NCBI GenBank assembly: GCA_009885845.1
Contig: VFJW01000119.1
Span: 1-34,696, forward strand
DNA: 34,696 nt
From: Geobacter sp.
GTDB taxonomy: Bacteria; Desulfobacterota; Desulfuromonadia; Geobacterales; Pseudopelobacteraceae
Direction of reading: 5' to 3'
Shown here: piece by piece, positions 2,200 to 26,589 of the stretch
Layout: each line of letters opens with the position of its first letter
Position numbering within the stretch: the stretch's first letter is position 1
Notes under the pieces: generated by a model
What the model was told of the DNA's origin: nothing
Databases searched by the model: none
The model's input: the letters and a program-made list of their open reading frames with translations, nothing else
Program-made: the position numbers and the translations under genes

Positions 2200-5100
2200 T
2201 TATTCAAAAGTGGCGGCATTATACCCTAACAGTCGCTCCACTTCCAGCCTTAAATCATCACTTGCCGCCACGTTCATTCCCGCCTGCAACGGCATGGTAG
2301 TGCGACTCCGCCCCGGTATCAGGAACTGGACGCAGGTTGGCACAGCTCCGGGGTGTCGTTCGATAACCTCTTTGAGAAGGGTGATCTGTTCGGCGGATGT
2401 TTGATCAATACGCAGGTTGAAAGATACTTTTCTGGTCGTCTGGGCTCTGGCTTCCGAGAGCAGTTTGATCTGTCCTGCCGGACCGCGGTCGCGCTGGAAC
2501 TTCCTGCCGTTATTCTCCTCGCCACCCTTCATGATCAGTACCTTGCACCCTTTTTCCCCCTTTTCCAGCTTGCCGATCACCAGCAGCGGGTCATCAGATT
2601 TCAGCAGAGCGGAGGTGGATACGTAGATGTCGGAAAAGACCGTGATCTCAACAGAACCGGTCAGATCCTCGATAGTCACAAATCCCATCCGGTCACCCTT
2701 TTTGGTCGTAATCTCCTTGAAGGCGGAGACGATTCCGCAGATTCGAATCTCGCTACCTTCAGGCATTTCCACCATACTGGCAATGTCGGTGTTGGTCAGA
2801 CGTTTGATGTCGTCGATGTAACGATCCAACGGGTGACCGGTAATCAAAAATCCGAGAGCTTCTTTTTCATACGCCAGCTTCTCCTTGTCATGCCATTCGG
2901 GGGTGTCAGGCAACTTCATGCCGCCGGTCGCATTGCCCCGTGACACCTCCTCGGCTCCGAACAATGAAACCTGGGCACTTGCCTTTTCTTCCTGGATTTT
3001 CTGACCATAACTTGAAGCGGTCTCCAGTCCTTCCATCTGGGAGGAACGGGTTGCTCCGGTAGAGTCAAAAGCGCCGCACTTGATCAATGATTCGATCACC
3101 CGTTTGTTGACTCTCCGCAGGTCAACCCGTTCACAGAAATCGTACAGAGTATTGAACGGGCCTTCCATGCGTGCTTCCAGAATGGCCTCGATTGCACCGG
3201 AGCCGACATTTTTCACCGCTCCCAGTCCAAAGCGCATCGATGTTCCAACGACAGTGAAGGAGAGTCCGGAGGTGTTGATATCCGGAGGCAGTACCTCGAT
3301 GCCCTGTTCGCGGCAATCGCTGATATTTTTGACAACTTTGTCGGTATTGTCCATGTCGCAGGTCAAAAGAGCAGCCATGAACTCGACCGGATAATGAGCC
3401 TTCAGATAGGCGGTCTGATACGCGATCAGAGCATAGGCGGCAGAGTGGGATTTGTTGAAGCCGTACGCGGCGAATTTTGCCATCAGATCGAAAATCGCCC
3501 CGGCTTTTTTTTGATCGACTCCCTGTTGTGCCGCACCTGCAAGAAAGGGGACTTTTTCCTTGTCCATGACCGCCGCATCTTTTTTTCCCATCGCGCGGCG
3601 AAGAAGATCAGCCTGTCCCAGGGAATAGCCGGCCAGCGATCGGGCAATCTGCATGACCTGCTCCTGATAGACAATAACCCCGTAGGTGTCCTTCAGGATC
3701 GGTTCAAGCTGTGGCAGCTCATATACAACCTGCTGGCGACCATGCTTGCATTCGATGAAATCCTTGACCATGCCGGATTCAAGCGGACCGGGGCGGTAGA
3801 GGGCGCAGGCGGCAATCACGTCCTCGAAACAGGAAGGCTTGAGCTTGACGAGCATCTCCTTGATGCCGGTGGATTCAAGCTGGAAAACCCCGGTAGTGTT
3901 ACCGGCGGAGATCAGATCATAGCTGGCCTGGTCGTCGTCACGCAGCGTGGTGATGTCGAAAAGCGGCTCGTTCACTCGCACCAGTTTAACGGCGTTTTCG
4001 ATCACGGTCAGATTTTTCAGTCCCAGAAAGTCAAATTTGACCAGGCCGACCAGTTCGACATATTTCATTGAGTACTGGGTATTAATCGAGCCGGTTTTCT
4101 GATCCTTGTAGAGCGGCAAAAACTCCTCGAGCGGTTCCGGTGCTACCACGACCGCAGCGGCGTGGGTCGAAGCATGCCGTGTCAGCCCCTCCAGGCAGAG
4201 GGCGGTGTCCAGAAGCATTTTGACCTGAGGGTCGGCAGCTGACATTTCGCCCAGTTGCGGTTCCTTTTGCAGCGCATCTTTCAGGGTAATGTTCAAGTCG
4301 TCCGGGATCAGTTTGGCTATCCGGTCGACATCACCGTACGACATGTTAAGTGCCCGTCCGACATCCCGTATGGCGGCTTTGGCTTTCATGGTGCCGAATG
4401 TAATGATCTGGCAGACACGGTCGCGACCGTACTTCTCGACCATGTACTGGATGACTTCGCCGCGTCGATCCTGACAAAAGTCGACGTCGATATCAGGCAT
4501 GGAGATACGTTCCGGGTTGAGAAAACGTTCGAACAGCAGGTTGTAGGGGAGCGGGTCAAGATCGGTGATCGAGATGCAATATGCAACCAGCGAACCGGCT
4601 GCCGAACCCCTGCCCGGACCGACCGGAATGCCGCGATCCTTGGCCCAGCGGATAAAGTCGGAGACGATCAGAAAATAGGCGGGAAATTTCATGTCGCTGA
4701 TACAATCCAGCTCAATTTCCAGACGGTCGAAGTAGCCCTGCTGCTGCTCCAGGGTCATGTCGGGATATTTGGCCAGAATGGTTATCATCCGCTCCTTGAG
4801 TCCGGTTGTTGCAAGTTCCCGCAGCATATCGTCATGATTCTGCCCTGCGGGGGGGTCAAAGTGCGGGAAGTAGTAGGTTTTGCCATCCACCGCCAGTTCG
4901 AGATTACAGCGTTCGGCAATTGCAAGCGTATTGCTGATTGCCTCCGGTGCGTAGGAAAAAGCCTGTGACATCTCATCCGGCGACTTGACGTAGAACTCGT
5001 CAACCGAAAATTTCATATGAGTCGGGTCTTCCATGGTCTTGCCGGTCTGGATGCAGAGCAATACCTCGTGAGCACGGGCGTCCTCACGGTTCAGGTAGTG

Positions 5101-20698: not shown

Positions 20699-21019
20699 TT
20701 AAGCGTAGATAGACTCCAGGCCCTTCCTCTTGACAATATTAAGCAATGTTATGGCCGGGCCGCTCGGGTGTTTTTCGCCTCGTTCCCACTTGCTGATGGT
20801 TCCCAGAGACACCCGGAAATAACGGGCAAAGACTGCCTGACTTACCCCGGCTTTGTTTCTGACTTCAACAATTTCTTCCGGCTTCATGTCCTCAATCGGC
20901 GCAAGGCACGAGGAATCAAAGCGTCGCATCGTTTTTGCCGGCACAATGCCTATGTCGTGCAAGCCCTGCATAGATTCATGGAGCGCTGCAAGTGCTTCGC
21001 TTTTATATTTCTTCGTCAT
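20699..21019 (-). CDS. higA: HigA-like XRE-family antitoxin (NadS type)
   Basis: The 106-residue protein carries a helix-turn-helix at about 47-100, with the sequence VEVRNKAGVSQAVFARYF followed by SLGTISKWERGEKHPSG. It is typical of antitoxins encoded downstream of RelE/HigB-like toxins. It overlaps the toxin gene by 17 bases. The HTH would bind the inverted repeat overlapping the promoter at 21396-21436. Confidence 0.85.
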   Translation of the reverse strand: MTKKYKSEALAALHESMQGLHDIGIVPAKTMRRFDSSCLAPIEDMKPEEIVEVRNKAGVSQAVFARYFRVSLGTISKWERGEKHPSGPAITLLNIVKRKGLESIYA

Positions 21020-21386
21020 TGTAGTCTACCTCCACAAGTTCTTTTTTATCCAATGCCAAGGCAATTTGTGCGTCGGTAAGGCCAAGATATATTGCCGTTG
21101 CTTCCCGGTATTCCTTCACCTCGGCATTGTCGAGATTATCTTTTTTGCTTTTGGGGAAAGAATAAAAGAAGATGCTGCGCGTTTCCGATTTAAAGGCAAT
21201 GATGCTTCGGTGCCCGCCGCTCTTTCCGCCGCCTTCCCGCGCGATTCGTTGTTTAATCATCCCTCCGCCATAGTCGGCGTCGATAAGCCCTTTTTCTATC
21301 TGCCGGACAGCCTCCACCAATTTTGCGTCGTCGATGCCTTCTTTAGACGCATGGCGCGCAAACCACTTTGTTTTGAATACTCTCAC
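21003..21386 (-). CDS. higB: RelE/HigB-like toxin (DUF1044 type)
   Basis: The 127-residue protein has the layout of the RelE-superfamily group PF06296: MRVFKTKWFARHASKEGI at the start, the Gly-rich IAREGGGKSGGHRSIIAFKS and the strand-turn IFFYSFPKSKKDNL. Such proteins are usually ribosome-dependent mRNA endonucleases. A GTG start is used, with GAGGG just upstream. Toxin before antitoxin is the higBA order. The C-terminal acidic tail (VEVDYNDEEI) is longer than in minimal RelE. Confidence 0.83.
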   Translation of the reverse strand: MRVFKTKWFARHASKEGIDDAKLVEAVRQIEKGLIDADYGGGMIKQRIAREGGGKSGGHRSIIAFKSETRSIFFYSFPKSKKDNLDNAEVKEYREATAIYLGLTDAQIALALDKKELVEVDYNDEEI

Positions 21387-21395
21387 ATTTCCCTC

Positions 21396-21436
21396 TGCTT
21401 GATAATAGTATAGTTCTTAGTGTTATAAATCAAGCA
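21396..21436. promoter_or_regulatory. Putative HigA operator (inverted repeat)
   Basis: TGCTTGAT (21396-21403) and ATCAAGCA (21429-21436) are perfect inverted arms 25 bases apart. They bracket the -10 and -35 boxes of higBA, the expected place for autorepression. Confidence 0.55.
21405..21433 (-). promoter_or_regulatory. Promoter of higBA
   Basis: On the minus strand TTGATT (21428-21433) and TACTAT (21405-21410) are 17 bases apart, ending about 18 bases before the GTG start. Confidence 0.55.
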
Positions 21437-21482
21437 ATATAAAAACAAAGAAAAAGGGTAGGGCGACATTATATCTGTTTGT

Positions 21483-22016
21483 TCACTTTTTCAACGATGT
21501 CCTGCATTTGTTGGCTGTCACAGCTTTCAAGTTCTCCACCGCCAGATTCCTGACTTCCAGAAGATCGAATCCATGTTTCGACATCAAGGTGTCACCGATT
21601 GTGTTGAGTTCTGTCATAACTGAACTGATCTCGCACGCGATTGCTTCAATCCGTCGGAAGACGTGCTCGGATTGATCCTGCAAGAATATTACGGATTCAT
21701 TTTCCCTGTGCAGTCGGTGCACGAGCCAGTTGCGTTCGTCCTTTAGCTTCCAGATCCGGTCATCAATGCCCGGTGGCAGCGGAAACTGCTTGCGAATATT
21801 TTGCATCAGTGTGCCCATAGTCTGCCTGTTTGCCGACTCCAGTGCGGCCTGCACTTGTGTCATGGCCTCAGATTTCTCCAGTCGGAGAGATGTTGCAAGG
21901 TACGCGGCAAGCGTGCTTTCAATTAATTGCGCCTGCAAAACAACGCATCCAACCTGCCTACAGAGTTCGTTAAAGTGTGGAGGTTCGTCCATTGTCATTC
22001 TCAATTCAGCCAACAT
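21483..22016 (-). CDS. Hypothetical alpha-helical protein with HEPN-type RNxxxH motif
   Basis: I do not recognise this 177-residue protein as a named family. It is predicted to be mostly helical. The segment KDERNWLVHRLHRE carries R95-N96-x3-H100, the RNxxxH form of the Rx4-6H motif that forms the active site of HEPN ribonucleases. The second half (about 107-165) is amphipathic helix. No partner nucleotidyltransferase or MNT-like gene is adjacent. It lies between the membrane coiled-coil gene and higBA in a run of minus-strand genes. GGAG lies about ten bases before the ATG; ATGs at codons 7 and 9 are alternatives. Confidence 0.6.
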   Translation of the reverse strand: MLAELRMTMDEPPHFNELCRQVGCVVLQAQLIESTLAAYLATSLRLEKSEAMTQVQAALESANRQTMGTLMQNIRKQFPLPPGIDDRIWKLKDERNWLVHRLHRENESVIFLQDQSEHVFRRIEAIACEISSVMTELNTIGDTLMSKHGFDLLEVRNLAVENLKAVTANKCRTSLKK

Positions 22017-22054
22017 AATTTAGTAGCTCCACGATTTTCACTCTCCGCCCTATT

Positions 22055-22669
22055 TTATACCCCAACGCCAATAAGGGACCTCAGTTTATCGGTAAGCTCT
22101 CTCCTGAACTCTGGTAGTTTGTCTATAATCTCGTATGCTTGGTCTTGCTGTTTAAATAGCTTGTCAAAATCTGCTTCTTGAAGCATGTAGCCATGATTAA
22201 TTTGTGATTCGACTCTCTTTTGCTGATTCACAGCCAAGTACATTTTTTTGAGGAAGTTTTCAAAATCTGCTTCAAGGGTTTTTGGCAGCAAAATTCGATT
22301 GATTTCGAAGTAATTGAAGAGGACTCGGTAACTGTCGATAAATGCTCCGTAAAGTTCATTGAGATCATCCATCGGTGTCATAAAGGATCTGATTTTGTTT
22401 TCGAAGTCCAATATCAGTTTGTACATCTCAATGATTACCGTAGCCTGTTTTTCAAAAATGCCGCTGTATGAAATTTGCAGGCGAATTCGCTCTTTCTCAA
22501 GGTTCGACCGGAAACTTTCGATTTCACTCTTCGCTTCTGATTCCAAGTTGCTCTTGAATTTTTCAATGTCCTTAGAAAGGAAATGTTGGAGAATTGTGCG
22601 CGCCAAAAAACCAAGAACTGCTATCATGATTGTGTTAGCTGCAATTGCTCCAATAATGATCTCAGTCAT
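22055..22669 (-). CDS. Membrane-anchored coiled-coil protein, unknown function
   Basis: The 204-residue product starts at the ATG at 22669 (AAGGA upstream; a TTG at 22693 is less likely). It has one N-terminal membrane segment (about residues 3-24, IIIGAIAANTIMIAVLGFLA), then a charged coiled coil (about 30-62), then a helical domain opening with SYSGIFEKQATVIIEMYKLI. That last motif resembles small anchored proteins found near defence and phage genes, but I cannot name the family. It lies 64 bases downstream of the BrnT-like gene and 38 bases upstream of the RNxxxH gene. Confidence 0.6.
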   Translation of the reverse strand: MTEIIIGAIAANTIMIAVLGFLARTILQHFLSKDIEKFKSNLESEAKSEIESFRSNLEKERIRLQISYSGIFEKQATVIIEMYKLILDFENKIRSFMTPMDDLNELYGAFIDSYRVLFNYFEINRILLPKTLEADFENFLKKMYLAVNQQKRVESQINHGYMLQEADFDKLFKQQDQAYEIIDKLPEFRRELTDKLRSLIGVGV

Positions 22670-22733
22670 GGTTCCTTGTCCTTCATCTAACAATCAGTGA
22701 GGAGTTGATCCGATGAACGGTCTAACCTCGTAG

Positions 22734-23099
22734 TTAGGGAGTTTTTTCGTGATATCCTGTGAAACAAGCGAAAACATTTCGCTCTGCCTCATGCGCCCTG
22801 CGCAACGATATAACACGGATAGTTTCATTTTTCCGCATAGTAGTAACAAAGAAAACTACTTTACCGTCGCTGTCTACTGTCATGTGTTCATGCCTGCGTT
22901 CATAACTTGTACAGGCGTCGCGTGTAATAAAAGGGCGCACATTAACCGGGAGGATTAAATGTTCTAGCAGGTTAACTGCGCTTGCCAGGGAATATTTATG
23001 TTTCGTTCGATTGTGTTCTTCTTTGTCTGCGGCGTAGTCGATCTTTGTAGCCCCAATTACAACACGGAAGTCTTCTGCTTCCCAGTACGGTGACTCCAT
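22734..23099 (-). CDS. BrnT-like (DUF497) RNase toxin, no visible BrnA partner
   Basis: The 121-residue protein has the BrnT/RelE-like core. Residues 21-46 (DYAADKEEHNRTKHKYSLASAV) follow the family pattern D.DK...N..KH..S...A, and RHEHMTVDSDGKVVFFVTTM with IRVISLRRAHEAERNVF matches the strands that carry the basic active-site residues. BrnT toxins are RNases normally followed by a BrnA ribbon-helix-helix antitoxin. Here the next gene encodes a membrane coiled-coil protein. It is 26 bases downstream of the TPR gene, and GGAG lies five bases before its ATG. It also carries an N-terminal extension of about 18 residues. Confidence 0.7.
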   Translation of the reverse strand: MESPYWEAEDFRVVIGATKIDYAADKEEHNRTKHKYSLASAVNLLEHLILPVNVRPFITRDACTSYERRHEHMTVDSDGKVVFFVTTMRKNETIRVISLRRAHEAERNVFACFTGYHEKTP

Positions 23100-23125
23100 A
23101 AATTTCTCCGATATTTTAATAACCG

Positions 23126-24403
23126 CTAAATAATCACCTCAGATGGGATTACAGAGTCATCACGAGCAACGGCAATCAAATACTGACTTTTTACCTTTTC
23201 ATCAGAAAAATGATGAGGTTTCATCTCAGATAAAATCATCGGAACTTTCCATATTTTTACATCCCATTTTCCGCTTTTTAGCATTTGCACGGTCTTGTTT
23301 AGATTGTCAATATTACGGAGATACAAGGTAAAACACCCCACACCCCCACCATCTAAAACCGGACGAGCACACACTGAGTCGCCCTCTAAAACATGTGTTT
23401 TTGATGTTCCGTTTATAATTTCAAGTGCCTCTTGAATTATTGAATCTAATTTTACCGCCTCTTCTATTATCACCTTCCGAACGTATTCGAGGTCTTTTGC
23501 CGGTGCCCAATGACATGACCTTTCGTCTCCAACATATCGTCGCCATCTAATCAACCAAGTTCCATTACGTTTCCTGACCAAGATCATGCCAAAAGTTTCA
23601 TGAACACCAGTATTTTTTTTCAGCTTACGCAAAATTGCATATGTATTTTCACGATCTGAATAGGCAGGATTCTGATCTGCTAAGGAAGTGTGCTTGTATG
23701 GGAATATTTCGATTGATCTATCATAATCTTCAATTGCTTGTTGGTAATTAAATAATGCAGAATATGACCGACCTCGCTGGCGGTACACATCGGCGTCGTT
23801 TGGATCTAATTCGATAGCTTTGTTGAAGTCTTCAATTGCCCGCCACTTGTCTCCCATATTAGAATATGCAAGTCCTCTGTTATGGTATGCTTTAAAATAT
23901 GTAGGGGCGATCTCGATAGACTTAGTAAAATTATCAATCGCTTGGCTATACTCACCTAATACATAATATACACATCCACGTTTATTGAATGGATCCGGAT
24001 TCTTTGAGTCAATTTTGATAACGGCATCCAGATCCGAAATAGCATTTTGTTTATCACCTACGTAATAATATACAATGCTGCGACAATAACGCGCCTCAAC
24101 AAATTCCGGGTTTATCTCAATAGATTCGCTATATTTGGCTATTGCCTCACCGTAAACTCGTTTAGCTTGAAATCGGAAGGCTTCATTGAATAAACCGTCC
24201 AGTTGGCTATTACCAGTTGAAATTTCAATAATTCCCCCATTTTTTGCCCATTCCACAGCAACATATATCGTCCCATCCTGAGGAACACGAAATGCATTTG
24301 CACATGTCTGCATCAGTAGCTTGTCAGTTATATGTATTTGCCTATCTACCGCAGCAACCACTCCGCCTATAACAGGTACAATTGCTTTATCGTTAGCATT
24401 CAT
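23126..24403 (-). CDS. TPR-repeat protein with unknown C-terminal domain
   Basis: The 425-residue protein has an N-terminal segment (1-65), then about five tetratricopeptide repeats (about 69-235; examples are DPFNKRGCVYYVLGEYSQAI and AYHNRGLAYSNMGDKWRAIE), and a C-terminal domain of about 185 residues that I do not recognise. TPRs bind other proteins and often serve as sensor or scaffold. No signal peptide is evident. The ATG overlaps the stop of the PLD-J gene by 11 bases, so the two products are almost certainly made together. The gene is distinctly more A+T-rich than the PLD gene. Confidence 0.85.
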   Translation of the reverse strand: MNANDKAIVPVIGGVVAAVDRQIHITDKLLMQTCANAFRVPQDGTIYVAVEWAKNGGIIEISTGNSQLDGLFNEAFRFQAKRVYGEAIAKYSESIEINPEFVEARYCRSIVYYYVGDKQNAISDLDAVIKIDSKNPDPFNKRGCVYYVLGEYSQAIDNFTKSIEIAPTYFKAYHNRGLAYSNMGDKWRAIEDFNKAIELDPNDADVYRQRGRSYSALFNYQQAIEDYDRSIEIFPYKHTSLADQNPAYSDRENTYAILRKLKKNTGVHETFGMILVRKRNGTWLIRWRRYVGDERSCHWAPAKDLEYVRKVIIEEAVKLDSIIQEALEIINGTSKTHVLEGDSVCARPVLDGGGVGCFTLYLRNIDNLNKTVQMLKSGKWDVKIWKVPMILSEMKPHHFSDEKVKSQYLIAVARDDSVIPSEVII

Positions 24404-25784
24404 TCTTGCCCTCCAATTGTATCAACTCCTGCTGCAATTTCTGACGTGTGATACTGAAATATTCATCCCAATCCGATATTCGTGCAACTTTCCGGTAGGC
24501 ATCAGAACCGCGTATAATCCTGGCCGTTCTGGCAAGCTCCGTTACTCTCGTACGCATGCGAACCACTTCTATATGGAGCCTCTGGGCATCACTCAAGGTG
24601 CCGCTGGCTGTGCTAAATATTCCCTTGCGCAGGTTGTTGTATATTTCCCTAACTGCGTCCAGATCATTGCACTCGTTGGATTCCATAAGTCGATGGAATA
24701 TACGTGCCGCCTCGACTTTTTGCTCTTCGGAAACAAGATCAGGATGGCAGAATTTAGAGCTGGCGCGAAAGAGTGCTTTCAACTCCATCTGGTCTTCGAT
24801 TGCAAGTACTGCAACCTCGTTCCGACGGGCTTGCTCGTCATCCTGAGTAAATTCTTCGTAGTCCCTCTTTGCATCTTGATATGCCTGTTCTTTTTTAGGT
24901 GAGGCGTGAACGTCCTGTTGCAGACGTTCAGCACGCAGAGAAAGAAGCCTGCGGATTATCTCCCCCAACTCGATGGCATGACGAAACTGGTAGGTACGCA
25001 GCAACCGCTCCATTTCAGCCTTCTCATCCTCCAAAGCCGCTACCTGGAGTTCCAGCACCCGAAGTTCCAGCCTTACCTCGCCGATCTCAGGGGCAACATA
25101 GACGGCAATCTGCTTGCGTGAACGGACAAATGTTTCAATGCCGGCAATCGCCTGATCCAATTGATCCGCCGCTATCTGGGCGATTATTTTATTCACTTCG
25201 GCGTACTCAACGCTACCAGCAATAAGCTTTTTCAGCTTTGCGAGTTGAAGAGAGACATCATCCTCGTCATCCAACTCAATCACATGGCGTAGCGCCTCAA
25301 GCCGGGCAACGATCTTGCCGAGATCAGCCCCGACAACACCCTTGCCGGAATGACGTTCAAAGATCGACTCGAATTCCTGAATAAACTGCCGGGCCAATTC
25401 GGGATGCTCGGAGATGACGGTGATGTTCTCGCTATTCTGCTGGGCCTGGCGGCTCCAGTTGTAGGAACCGGTAATGACGGTGGCGCTGTCGATTACGCAG
25501 AACTTGTTGTGCATGATGGCGGAACTCTTCTTTTTGTCCCCCACCATCATGAACACGCCGCCCAGATCGCGCAGTCGCTCATATGCAATGCCGCTCTTGC
25601 GGTTTATGGAGTCGTTGATAATGATCAGCTCCACCCGTACACCGGAACCGGCCTTTTGGCAGAGCTGCTCGAATATTTCCGGATCGGTAAACCAGGCGAC
25701 AGCGATATGAATAGAGGTTGCTGCCTTGCGGATTTCATGCAGAATTTGAAGTTGGATATCATCGAAATATGCCTGGGTTTGCAT
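24393..25784 (-). CDS. PLD-family phosphodiesterase/nuclease fused to a coiled coil and a J-like domain
   Basis: The 463-residue protein begins with a single phospholipase-D-like domain (about 1-145). It contains one HKD motif, HNKFCVID (H92, K94, D99), followed by TGSYNWS, as in the Nuc/Zuc-like nucleases that act as dimers. Then come a helical and coiled-coil stretch (about 155-330) and a J-like segment (about 330-388) with HPD at 347-349 in ASSKFCHPDLVSEE. A further helical tail follows. No signal peptide is seen, so a cytoplasmic nuclease is more likely than a secreted lipase. GGGGA lies upstream of the ATG. It heads the block that continues into the TPR gene. Confidence 0.82.
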   Translation of the reverse strand: MQTQAYFDDIQLQILHEIRKAATSIHIAVAWFTDPEIFEQLCQKAGSGVRVELIIINDSINRKSGIAYERLRDLGGVFMMVGDKKKSSAIMHNKFCVIDSATVITGSYNWSRQAQQNSENITVISEHPELARQFIQEFESIFERHSGKGVVGADLGKIVARLEALRHVIELDDEDDVSLQLAKLKKLIAGSVEYAEVNKIIAQIAADQLDQAIAGIETFVRSRKQIAVYVAPEIGEVRLELRVLELQVAALEDEKAEMERLLRTYQFRHAIELGEIIRRLLSLRAERLQQDVHASPKKEQAYQDAKRDYEEFTQDDEQARRNEVAVLAIEDQMELKALFRASSKFCHPDLVSEEQKVEAARIFHRLMESNECNDLDAVREIYNNLRKGIFSTASGTLSDAQRLHIEVVRMRTRVTELARTARIIRGSDAYRKVARISDWDEYFSITRQKLQQELIQLEGKNEC

Positions 25785-26002
25785 TGATTGAATCCCCCTG
25801 CGGACACTCTAGCACAAGTATGCGACAAAATAAGTCATGCGGTGAAATTAAAGGGTGAAGAATGAAACTTCTCTGGAACCTGCGTGCGATCGTTATGACT
25901 CTCTTTCAATGGCTGCACGTCATAACCTGAATCCATCAAAGAATGATATCCAGACGCCTTTGCTGTCATTGCCACGGTCATTCATGTCCGGAATTTCGAA
26001 TT

Positions 26003-26338
26003 TCAACCGTACTGTGCTGCTTCCTCTAAAACGTGAGTTGCCCACTGGTTAAGGCTTTTCCCTGCGCTTTCGGCGGCCATGATTGCAGCGGCATGAACTT
26101 CGGGAGGCACACGTAATAAAACCTTTCCGGAAGCAGGCTTGTGCGGTGGTTGCCCCAACACGATACACGCGGCAAGATAATCATCAACGGCTTCATGAAA
26201 TGAGGTTTCAAGCTCCTCAACAGATGTCCCGTGAAATCCTACAATATCGCGGATTCCCGCCAGATGTCCGACAAAAATCCGGTCGTGTGCGTCAAATTCA
26301 ACCCGCGCGGCGAATCCTTTATATTTCATACTGTTCAT
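26003..26338 (-). CDS. hicB: HicB-family antitoxin with C-terminal RHH domain
   Basis: The 111-residue protein has an N-terminal HicB domain (residues 4-60, with FVGHLAGIRDIVGFHGTSV and EELETSFHEAVDDYL) and a C-terminal ribbon-helix-helix segment (KVLLRVPPEVHAAAIMAAE, SLNQWATHVLEEA) that should bind its own operator. GGAG lies seven bases before the ATG. The gene overlaps the end of hicA by 4 bases. Unlike the hicB at 546-761 it has a DNA-binding domain. Confidence 0.92.
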   Translation of the reverse strand: MNSMKYKGFAARVEFDAHDRIFVGHLAGIRDIVGFHGTSVEELETSFHEAVDDYLAACIVLGQPPHKPASGKVLLRVPPEVHAAAIMAAESAGKSLNQWATHVLEEAAQYG

Positions 26339-26589
26339 GGTTTTACTCCGATTGATTCGAGAAAATACCTGGCATCCGTAACTCTGTACCGTAAAGACTC
26401 TTTTTGGGGATGAGGCCGGTGAAAATATGCCCGCTTTCCCAGTTTTTCAAAAGTGACTGAAGAACCGGAGCCTTCCACCACGACACAACCCACAGCAATT
26501 AGTAATGCTTCTATCCGTGACCACTCAATAGTGCTGTTGGCAGGGTTACTGAATATGGCTTCAAGTGTCTTCCGGTGTTTATTGTTCAT
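26335..26589 (-). CDS. hicA: HicA-family toxin, probably translated from a leaderless mRNA
   Basis: From the ATG at 26589 the product has 84 residues: NNKHRKTLEAIFSNPANSTI, WSRIEALLIAVGCVVVEGSG, then FEKLGKRAYFHRPHPQKES. This is the HicA subfamily in which the usual G.HH motif is replaced (SGSSVTF) and HRPHP follows. The frame is open upstream to a TTG, but that region contains the promoter. The -10 box ends only five bases before the ATG and no Shine-Dalgarno is present. The gene is followed by hicB with a 4-base overlap. Confidence 0.87.
   Translation of the reverse strand: MNNKHRKTLEAIFSNPANSTIEWSRIEALLIAVGCVVVEGSGSSVTFEKLGKRAYFHRPHPQKESLRYRVTDARYFLESIGVKP

Follow-up and report, generated by a model that had tools for sequence, protein, structure and literature searches.

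We analysed a 34,696-nucleotide stretch of a Geobacter sp. genome (contig VFJW01000119.1; hereafter the window), in which nine genes separate ilvE from pyc. Two of these genes encode the PLD-J protein, which combines a phospholipase D-type (PLD) domain with a coiled coil and a J domain, and an adjacent tetratricopeptide repeat (TPR) protein that begins with a short N-terminal tag. Comparison with related loci indicates that PLD-J and its tagged partner are a real, recurrent module. The sequence evidence points to a two-gene conflict module, most likely anti-phage, to which we assign a probability of about 0.55. The seven other genes are most likely unrelated passengers in a variable spot between ilvE and pyc.

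The J protein and its tagged partner

The window PLD-J protein starts with a single-HKD PLD domain (residues ~1-145; HNKFCVIDSATVITGSYN) that matches PLDc_2 (4e-25, Pfam) and carries the motif HxKxxxxDxxxxxxGSxN. A long coiled coil (~233-321) and a J-type domain with an HPD motif follow. The J domain was weak in the window protein taken singly (Pfam E = 0.028). PF00226 (DnaJ) matched 17 of 17 aligned family members at E ≤ 0.1 (best, 1.4e-6), the family profile matched auxilin J domains of solved structures, and a structure model placed HPD between helices 329-346 and 353-371. The window thus has both features of the module, a coiled coil with an HPD J domain and a neighbour with an N-terminal tag.

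Peptide patterns run against 84,980 species genomes returned seven loci with PLD-J relatives, one of them a remnant (L008; loci are numbered L and genomes G). Viral contigs gave 19 PLD-J matches, two full-length and 17 to the PLD part only. Among 72,556 plasmid and 50,697 phage records, none covered 80% of the full-length query. Profile searches matched 4/345 genomes in the phylum of the window, with PLD-J solely in the window's own genome, 12/296 in the phylum of a Paludibacter metagenome-assembled genome (MAG) and 1/201 in that of an Anaerolineaceae MAG; in two orders, a J gene was found in 12/248 (E ≤ 1e-15) and 8/247 genomes. The anchor genome of each search is part of its count, and thresholds varied from 1e-8 to 1e-15. 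We studied 29 PLD-J or J loci (340 kb); counts of 30 sources are these loci plus the window. Outside all counts stand 14 weaker J-like loci viewed by eye (L012-L014, L022, L023 and L026-L034), the remnant L008 and 17 of the 19 viral loci.

HPD was present in all 28 J proteins compared (the window and 27 loci), whereas 17 had the HKD motif (with P for S in L088) and 11 had it in degenerate form or not at all. This count omits the fragments L025 and L095, two parts of one gene; L095 is a contig end without a testable partner. These data suggest that the coil-J part is the core of the protein and that PLD is its commonest output in our sample, which is biased to PLD-J proteins because the search profile was built from them.

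The genes beside J genes shared a common start of ~30 residues followed by unrelated bodies. Pfam recognised TPR bodies in the window, L003, L004, L080, L085 and L088; WD40 bodies in L002 and L078; LRR bodies in L005 (upstream gene), L006, L037, L076, L077 and L083; WG repeats in L007 and L036; propellers of gyrase-A type in L094 and of PQQ type in L089, L090, L092 and L093; and a FISUMP body in L087. The vWA body of L081 fell under the curated Pfam cut-off and was a clear TerY in PADLOC. The bodies of L079, L025 and one L078 partner had no Pfam match at E ≤ 0.001, and the neighbour's tag was weak in L080, L085 and L037. L078:1261-4823 encodes two tagged proteins of ~25-residue W-rich repeats, and the one scanned (3558-4823) was without a Pfam match.

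Between the window partner and its closest relatives, the tag was 43-57% identical and the body 15-26%; across loci, tag peptides were 13-56% identical to that of the window. The same boundary was visible in the DNA. Homology to L002, L003 and L004 began 7-47 bp before PLD-J and ended at 24321, 24296 and 24318, respectively, in or just past the tag. For L002, with its WD40-type partner, it ran from 47 bp before PLD-J through about codon 28 of the partner; homology to L005 ended at 24456, before the partner. In the PLD-J tree, L002 (WD40), L003 (TPR) and L005 grouped at 98/93 inside the clade of the window, and at least 8 body changes were required on 16 labelled rows (one main label per locus; L005 left out for its short partner; L084 called LRR by likeness to L083).

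We scored a tag profile in a series of runs that each omitted one locus. For 26/30 sources, the best match adjoined the J gene, and 16 of these matches reached ≥8 bits. At L085, that best-scoring J neighbour was a gene other than the TPR gene. Close kinship among some loci led us to repeat the test with whole clusters left out (366 open reading frames (ORFs), 30 of them J genes); four earlier seeds, that of L085 and the second seeds of L077, L078 and L087, were dropped. At ≥8 bits, the tag was found in 17/52 same-strand J-gene neighbours versus 5/284 other ORFs. These five also read as tagged: second copies in L087 and L077, the LRR gene in L005, a W-rich repeat gene in L078 and TerY in L082. 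Adjacent matches occurred in 16/30 loci, and two of the remaining 14 (L005 and L082) had a non-adjacent tagged match. The window TPR partner scored 21.7 bits with its own locus left out and 12.9 bits with its cluster left out.

The tag also tracked J genes across genomes. In one order, the tag profile (E ≤ 0.005) matched 7/248 genomes, all within the 12 that have a J gene (5/7 were seed sources). Among 76 chosen genomes (E ≤ 1e-3), it matched 18/27 with a J gene (16/18 seed sources) and 0/49 without, J-gene absence being judged at the thresholds of the profile searches in the window's phylum and the two orders. In the chosen genomes, 23/24 tag matches lay on the contig of the J gene. G876 has one tagged gene on a separate short contig, near a PP2C-like gene (by eye) and with no J gene in the stretch seen. 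Five J-less genomes gave weak tag matches (0.015-0.04) in or near unrelated-looking genes.

Other J proteins were seen in the same searches. Same-family matches in G098, G153 and G202 were rejected as PLD-J; by eye, these J proteins rather have LRR-like ends, and their genes neighbour a DnaA-like ATPase gene. L012, L013, L014 and L023 (same-family genomes and the genome of L002) likewise encode a J-domain coiled-coil protein ending in LRR-like repeats, so that a single chain unites J-coil and repeat body; their genes adjoin a DnaA-like ATPase gene, some also with ruvB-like sequence (all by eye). The genome of L005 has at L022:551-2205 a J-coil protein that lacks PLD, with an FGE-sulfatase (SUMF1-type) protein encoded after it. 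Stand-alone J proteins were present on one Salmonella and one Enterobacter plasmid.

Candidate function and known systems

In an anti-phage module of this kind, the repeat or propeller body of the partner would act as a sensor that recognises an infection cue. The tag would be an adaptor docking on the helical or J part of PLD-J, perhaps aided by Hsp70 (DnaK) recruited by the HPD motif. Docking may join two single-HKD domains, and the PLD active site could then cut nucleic acid (or membrane lipid), an activity that would stop the infected cell. Single-HKD PLD proteins generally work as dimers, and the long coiled coil of PLD-J would be a natural dimeriser. In a model of the partner alone, pLDDT was ~33-50 in the tag and ~73-95 in the TPR region; low confidence in the tag is compatible with a peptide that becomes ordered when bound, though it is no proof of this.

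The earlier note on this DNA, made from the sequence alone, had placed the genes in a defence context. For the PLD-J/TPR pair this appears reasonable, given partner exchange and the presence of TerY at L081 and L082. The TerY-P triad consists of a vWA-type TerY, a PP2C and a Ser/Thr kinase. At L081, the tagged partner is TerY (PADLOC 1.8e-59), accompanied by an STK_OB-type kinase cut by the contig end; the gene between them is PP2C-like by eye, with no PADLOC match. At L082, the tagged partner is again TerY (PADLOC 9e-54), followed by a PP2C-like gene (by eye). Since the PADLOC matches start at residues 35 (L081) and 32 (L082), the TerY model leaves most of the tag uncovered. Pfam and PADLOC recognised none of the three triad members in the nine window genes. 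PLD-J and the tag-TerY partner of L082 are apparently separated by an inserted hicAB-like pair (L082:7531-9074; by eye), and at L026:1-3714 a J protein stands in a row with TerY, PP2C and a kinase bearing WG-like repeats (by eye). An excerpt of PMC11090510 describes TerY-P-like modules with an OB-fold kinase as stand-alone anti-phage systems, attributing this to Gao et al. 2020, and an excerpt of PMC7699616 reports TerY-P activity against T7-like phages.

The architecture resembles EAD-linked and TRADD-N conflict systems, which extracts of Kaur et al. 2020 (PMC7159879) describe as a constant adaptor with rapidly varying modules; in an extract of PMC10907252, EADs are adaptors linking sensors and effectors. 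As far as these extracts go, the likeness lies in a constant adaptor, highly variable modules, and sensor and effector on adjacent genes, but EAD systems carry adaptor copies on both partners, thought to pair homotypically. The 30 J proteins scored ≤5.6 bits with the tag profile when clusters were left out (≤5.8 bits with single loci left out), with no sign of the same adaptor on both proteins (EAD models being scanned just as they occur in Pfam and PADLOC), and pairing would therefore be heterotypic, tag to coil/J.

In sequence and among solved structures, the PLD part came closest to Zucchini/mitoPLD (mitochondrial cardiolipin hydrolase), NucT, Nuc and FAM83. Nuc/NucT and Zucchini/mitoPLD share the H-x-K-x4-D-x6-G-S-x-N motif, whereas PLD-J adds the fused coiled coil and J domain. 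DrmC of DISARM, DpdK and MkoB/MkoC of Mokosh showed weak to moderate likeness in the PLD domain, and their matches to the window protein were confined to this part; the DrmC score of the window protein was 24.3 against an NCBIfam cut-off of 133. DISARM surrounds DrmC with DrmA, DrmB and a methylase, and we found no helicase, methylase or DUF1998 match among the nine genes. Our searches of freely readable literature brought up no recognisable description of a system of PLD-J with a tagged partner.

The same PLD relatives bear on a different and rather unlikely explanation, in which the tagged protein and the J protein serve a stress response as a general signalling unit linked to chaperones, and PLD is a regulated membrane-lipid hydrolase. 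A J domain kept more consistently than PLD would suit such a unit, as would the proximity of cardiolipin hydrolase/Zucchini and the tie of TerY-P to tellurite resistance mentioned in an excerpt of PMC11090510. However, Nuc and NucT, which are equally among the near structures, are nucleases, and exchanged partner bodies with a patchy distribution are typical of conflict systems.

Several observations weigh against an anti-phage PLD-J/TPR module. Confidence in the PLD-J model was modest (pLDDT 71, pTM 0.38), and the partner model was built from 3 sequences. The PLD domain is missing in 7/28 J proteins and the HKD motif in 4 more, so PLD activity is not needed for pairing. The tag seeds were selected by eye among the neighbours of J genes. 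In the test that omitted whole clusters, 14/30 loci had no adjacent match at ≥8 bits; these include L003, L005 (downstream gene), L007, L037, L079, L080, L081 (7.4 bits), L085 and L090-L093. Because the L003 gene and the L005 downstream gene are plain kin of the window partner and scored <3 bits in this test, its sensitivity is limited. L088 is flanked downstream by sulfur-assimilation-type genes (by eye) and not by a defence island.

The other seven genes and the ilvE-pyc site

All nine ORFs were present between 20699 and 26589 on the minus strand, with the order and domains given in the earlier note (Table 1). In transcription order, the junctions are -4, 218, -11, 26, 40, 38, 96 and -17 bp, which bears out the spacing of mostly less than 65 bases (6/8 junctions). 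Pfam also supported the two toxin-antitoxin (TA) pairs described as brackets, and the ilvE and pyc flanks were seen. As for the three kinds of nuclease proposed, PLD and BrnT were recovered by Pfam, while the RNxxxH protein had no match to a HEPN family.

Table 1. Features of the nine-gene block (window coordinates)
Feature	Position	Strand	Basis
HicA toxin	26335-26589	-	Pfam
HicB antitoxin	26003-26338	-	Pfam
PLD-J protein, 463 aa	24393-25784	-	Pfam, family profile, structure model
TPR protein, whole gene (tagged partner of PLD-J)	23126-24403	-	Pfam TPR, tag profile
N-terminal tag of TPR protein, first ~37 codons	24293-24403	-	Common to partners of PLD-J relatives
Partner body: TPR superhelix ~66-233 and C-terminal region without known fold; exchangeable part	23126-24292	-	
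BrnT-like protein, no BrnA gene beside it; outside the module	22734-23099	-	BrnT PF04365 (8e-10)
Membrane-anchored coiled-coil protein; outside the module	22055-22693	-	Weak PADLOC RTasTM match (3.6e-6)
RNxxxH protein, HEPN-type motif only; outside the module	21483-22016	-	Motif
HigB/RelE-type toxin, TA pair with the 20699-21019 gene	21003-21386	-	RelE PF06296
HigA-type HTH antitoxin	20699-21019	-	Pfam HTH antitoxin

The earlier note had suggested that PLD-J, TPR, BrnT-like, membrane and RNxxxH proteins form one defence system, and that homologues occurring independently, with no conserved neighbourhood, would speak against it. The PLD-J and TPR proteins do belong together. For the BrnT-like, membrane and RNxxxH proteins, independent occurrence is largely what we found: apart from PLD-J, the TPR protein alone of the window proteins was matched in the 29 loci, and HigA, HigB, RNxxxH, membrane, BrnT, HicB and HicA had no homologue there (tblastn or phmmer, E ≤ 0.01). 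A five-gene system is therefore very unlikely. Its five genes share one strand with gaps of 26-40 bp, and at L005 the PLD-J gene has, at a distance of ~1.8 kb, a gene for a remotely similar membrane/coiled-coil protein (23% identity), which counts against separating the membrane gene from the module; but homologues of the three extra proteins were present in 0/29 loci, and gene compositions differ.

Elsewhere, 11 plasmid records held relatives of the membrane or RNxxxH protein, three of which we opened. A membrane-protein relative (29% identity) lay in Vibrio, in a row of TA genes and genes of phage-abortive type, and RNxxxH relatives lay near integrase/TA or partition genes. The RNxxxH motif was kept in both aligned plasmid relatives (3/3 with the window). 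The BrnT-like protein had no relative in plasmids, and none of the three proteins had one in viral contigs. The window differs from BrnTA systems in having a BrnT domain without its partner, BrnA not being among the nine proteins (Pfam, E ≤ 1). The module is flanked by HicAB and HigBA, and these pairs and the orphan BrnT are counted among the probable passengers.

The start codons of ilvE and pyc are 6413 bp apart in the window. In a same-family genome (G153, L144), the two genes stand back to back with a gap of ~306 bp and none of the nine genes, which fits a gain of DNA at this site. In a same-genus genome (G025, L141), the gap is ~2.3 kb and holds two other genes; in the other 3 of 5 fetched regions, ilvE was not seen beside pyc. 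Because the gap differs between genomes, the block appears to be variable cargo. Its composition varied as the earlier note had described, with a G+C content of 39% in the TPR body and the membrane gene, 50-52% in PLD-J and 52% in ilvE and pyc. On a Desulfocapsaceae contig (L008:291-5407), a PLD-J remnant (residues 1-91) lies between a TA-like gene pair and ilvE, which is also a neighbour gene in the window (by eye).

A promoter-like site precedes hicA (26622-26595, 11/12 matches); such sites were about as frequent in the window (14) as in shuffles (mean 13.0). No tRNA was found in a scan of the window. An integron cassette array, an idea taken from the Vibrio gene row, was rejected: RYYYAAC sites were not enriched (52 versus a mean of 59.6 in shuffles), no repeat family had cassette-end spacing, and the gaps are just 26-40 bp.

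A possible plug-in architecture

The least probable explanation that we weighed treats the tag as a mere consequence of overlapping genes, serving as a leader in coupled translation and not as a protein interaction element. Overlaps of 4-11 bp between partner start and PLD-J end do occur in the window, L002, L003 and L004. Against this explanation, some tagged genes are placed upstream of the J gene (L006, L076, L087 and L088), on the opposite strand (L005 and L078) or three genes off (L077), and what is conserved is the peptide.

More tentatively than the anti-phage module itself, we suggest that PLD-J and its kin have a plug-in architecture that was previously undescribed. A short, probably disordered tag would dock unrelated sensors (TPR, WD40, LRR, WG, propellers, FISUMP and vWA/TerY) on one coiled-coil/J hub. 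The hub would carry a PLD nuclease or another output, licensed by Hsp70, and specificity may be renewed by exchange of everything behind the tag.

If this is true, these loci would represent a new family of bacterial sensor-adaptor-effector immune systems, in which a minimal linear adaptor takes the place of a folded death-like domain. The effector would contain an Hsp70 co-chaperone motif, PLD effectors would be linked to the TerY-P triad, and the tag would provide a simple handle with which to find more sensors.

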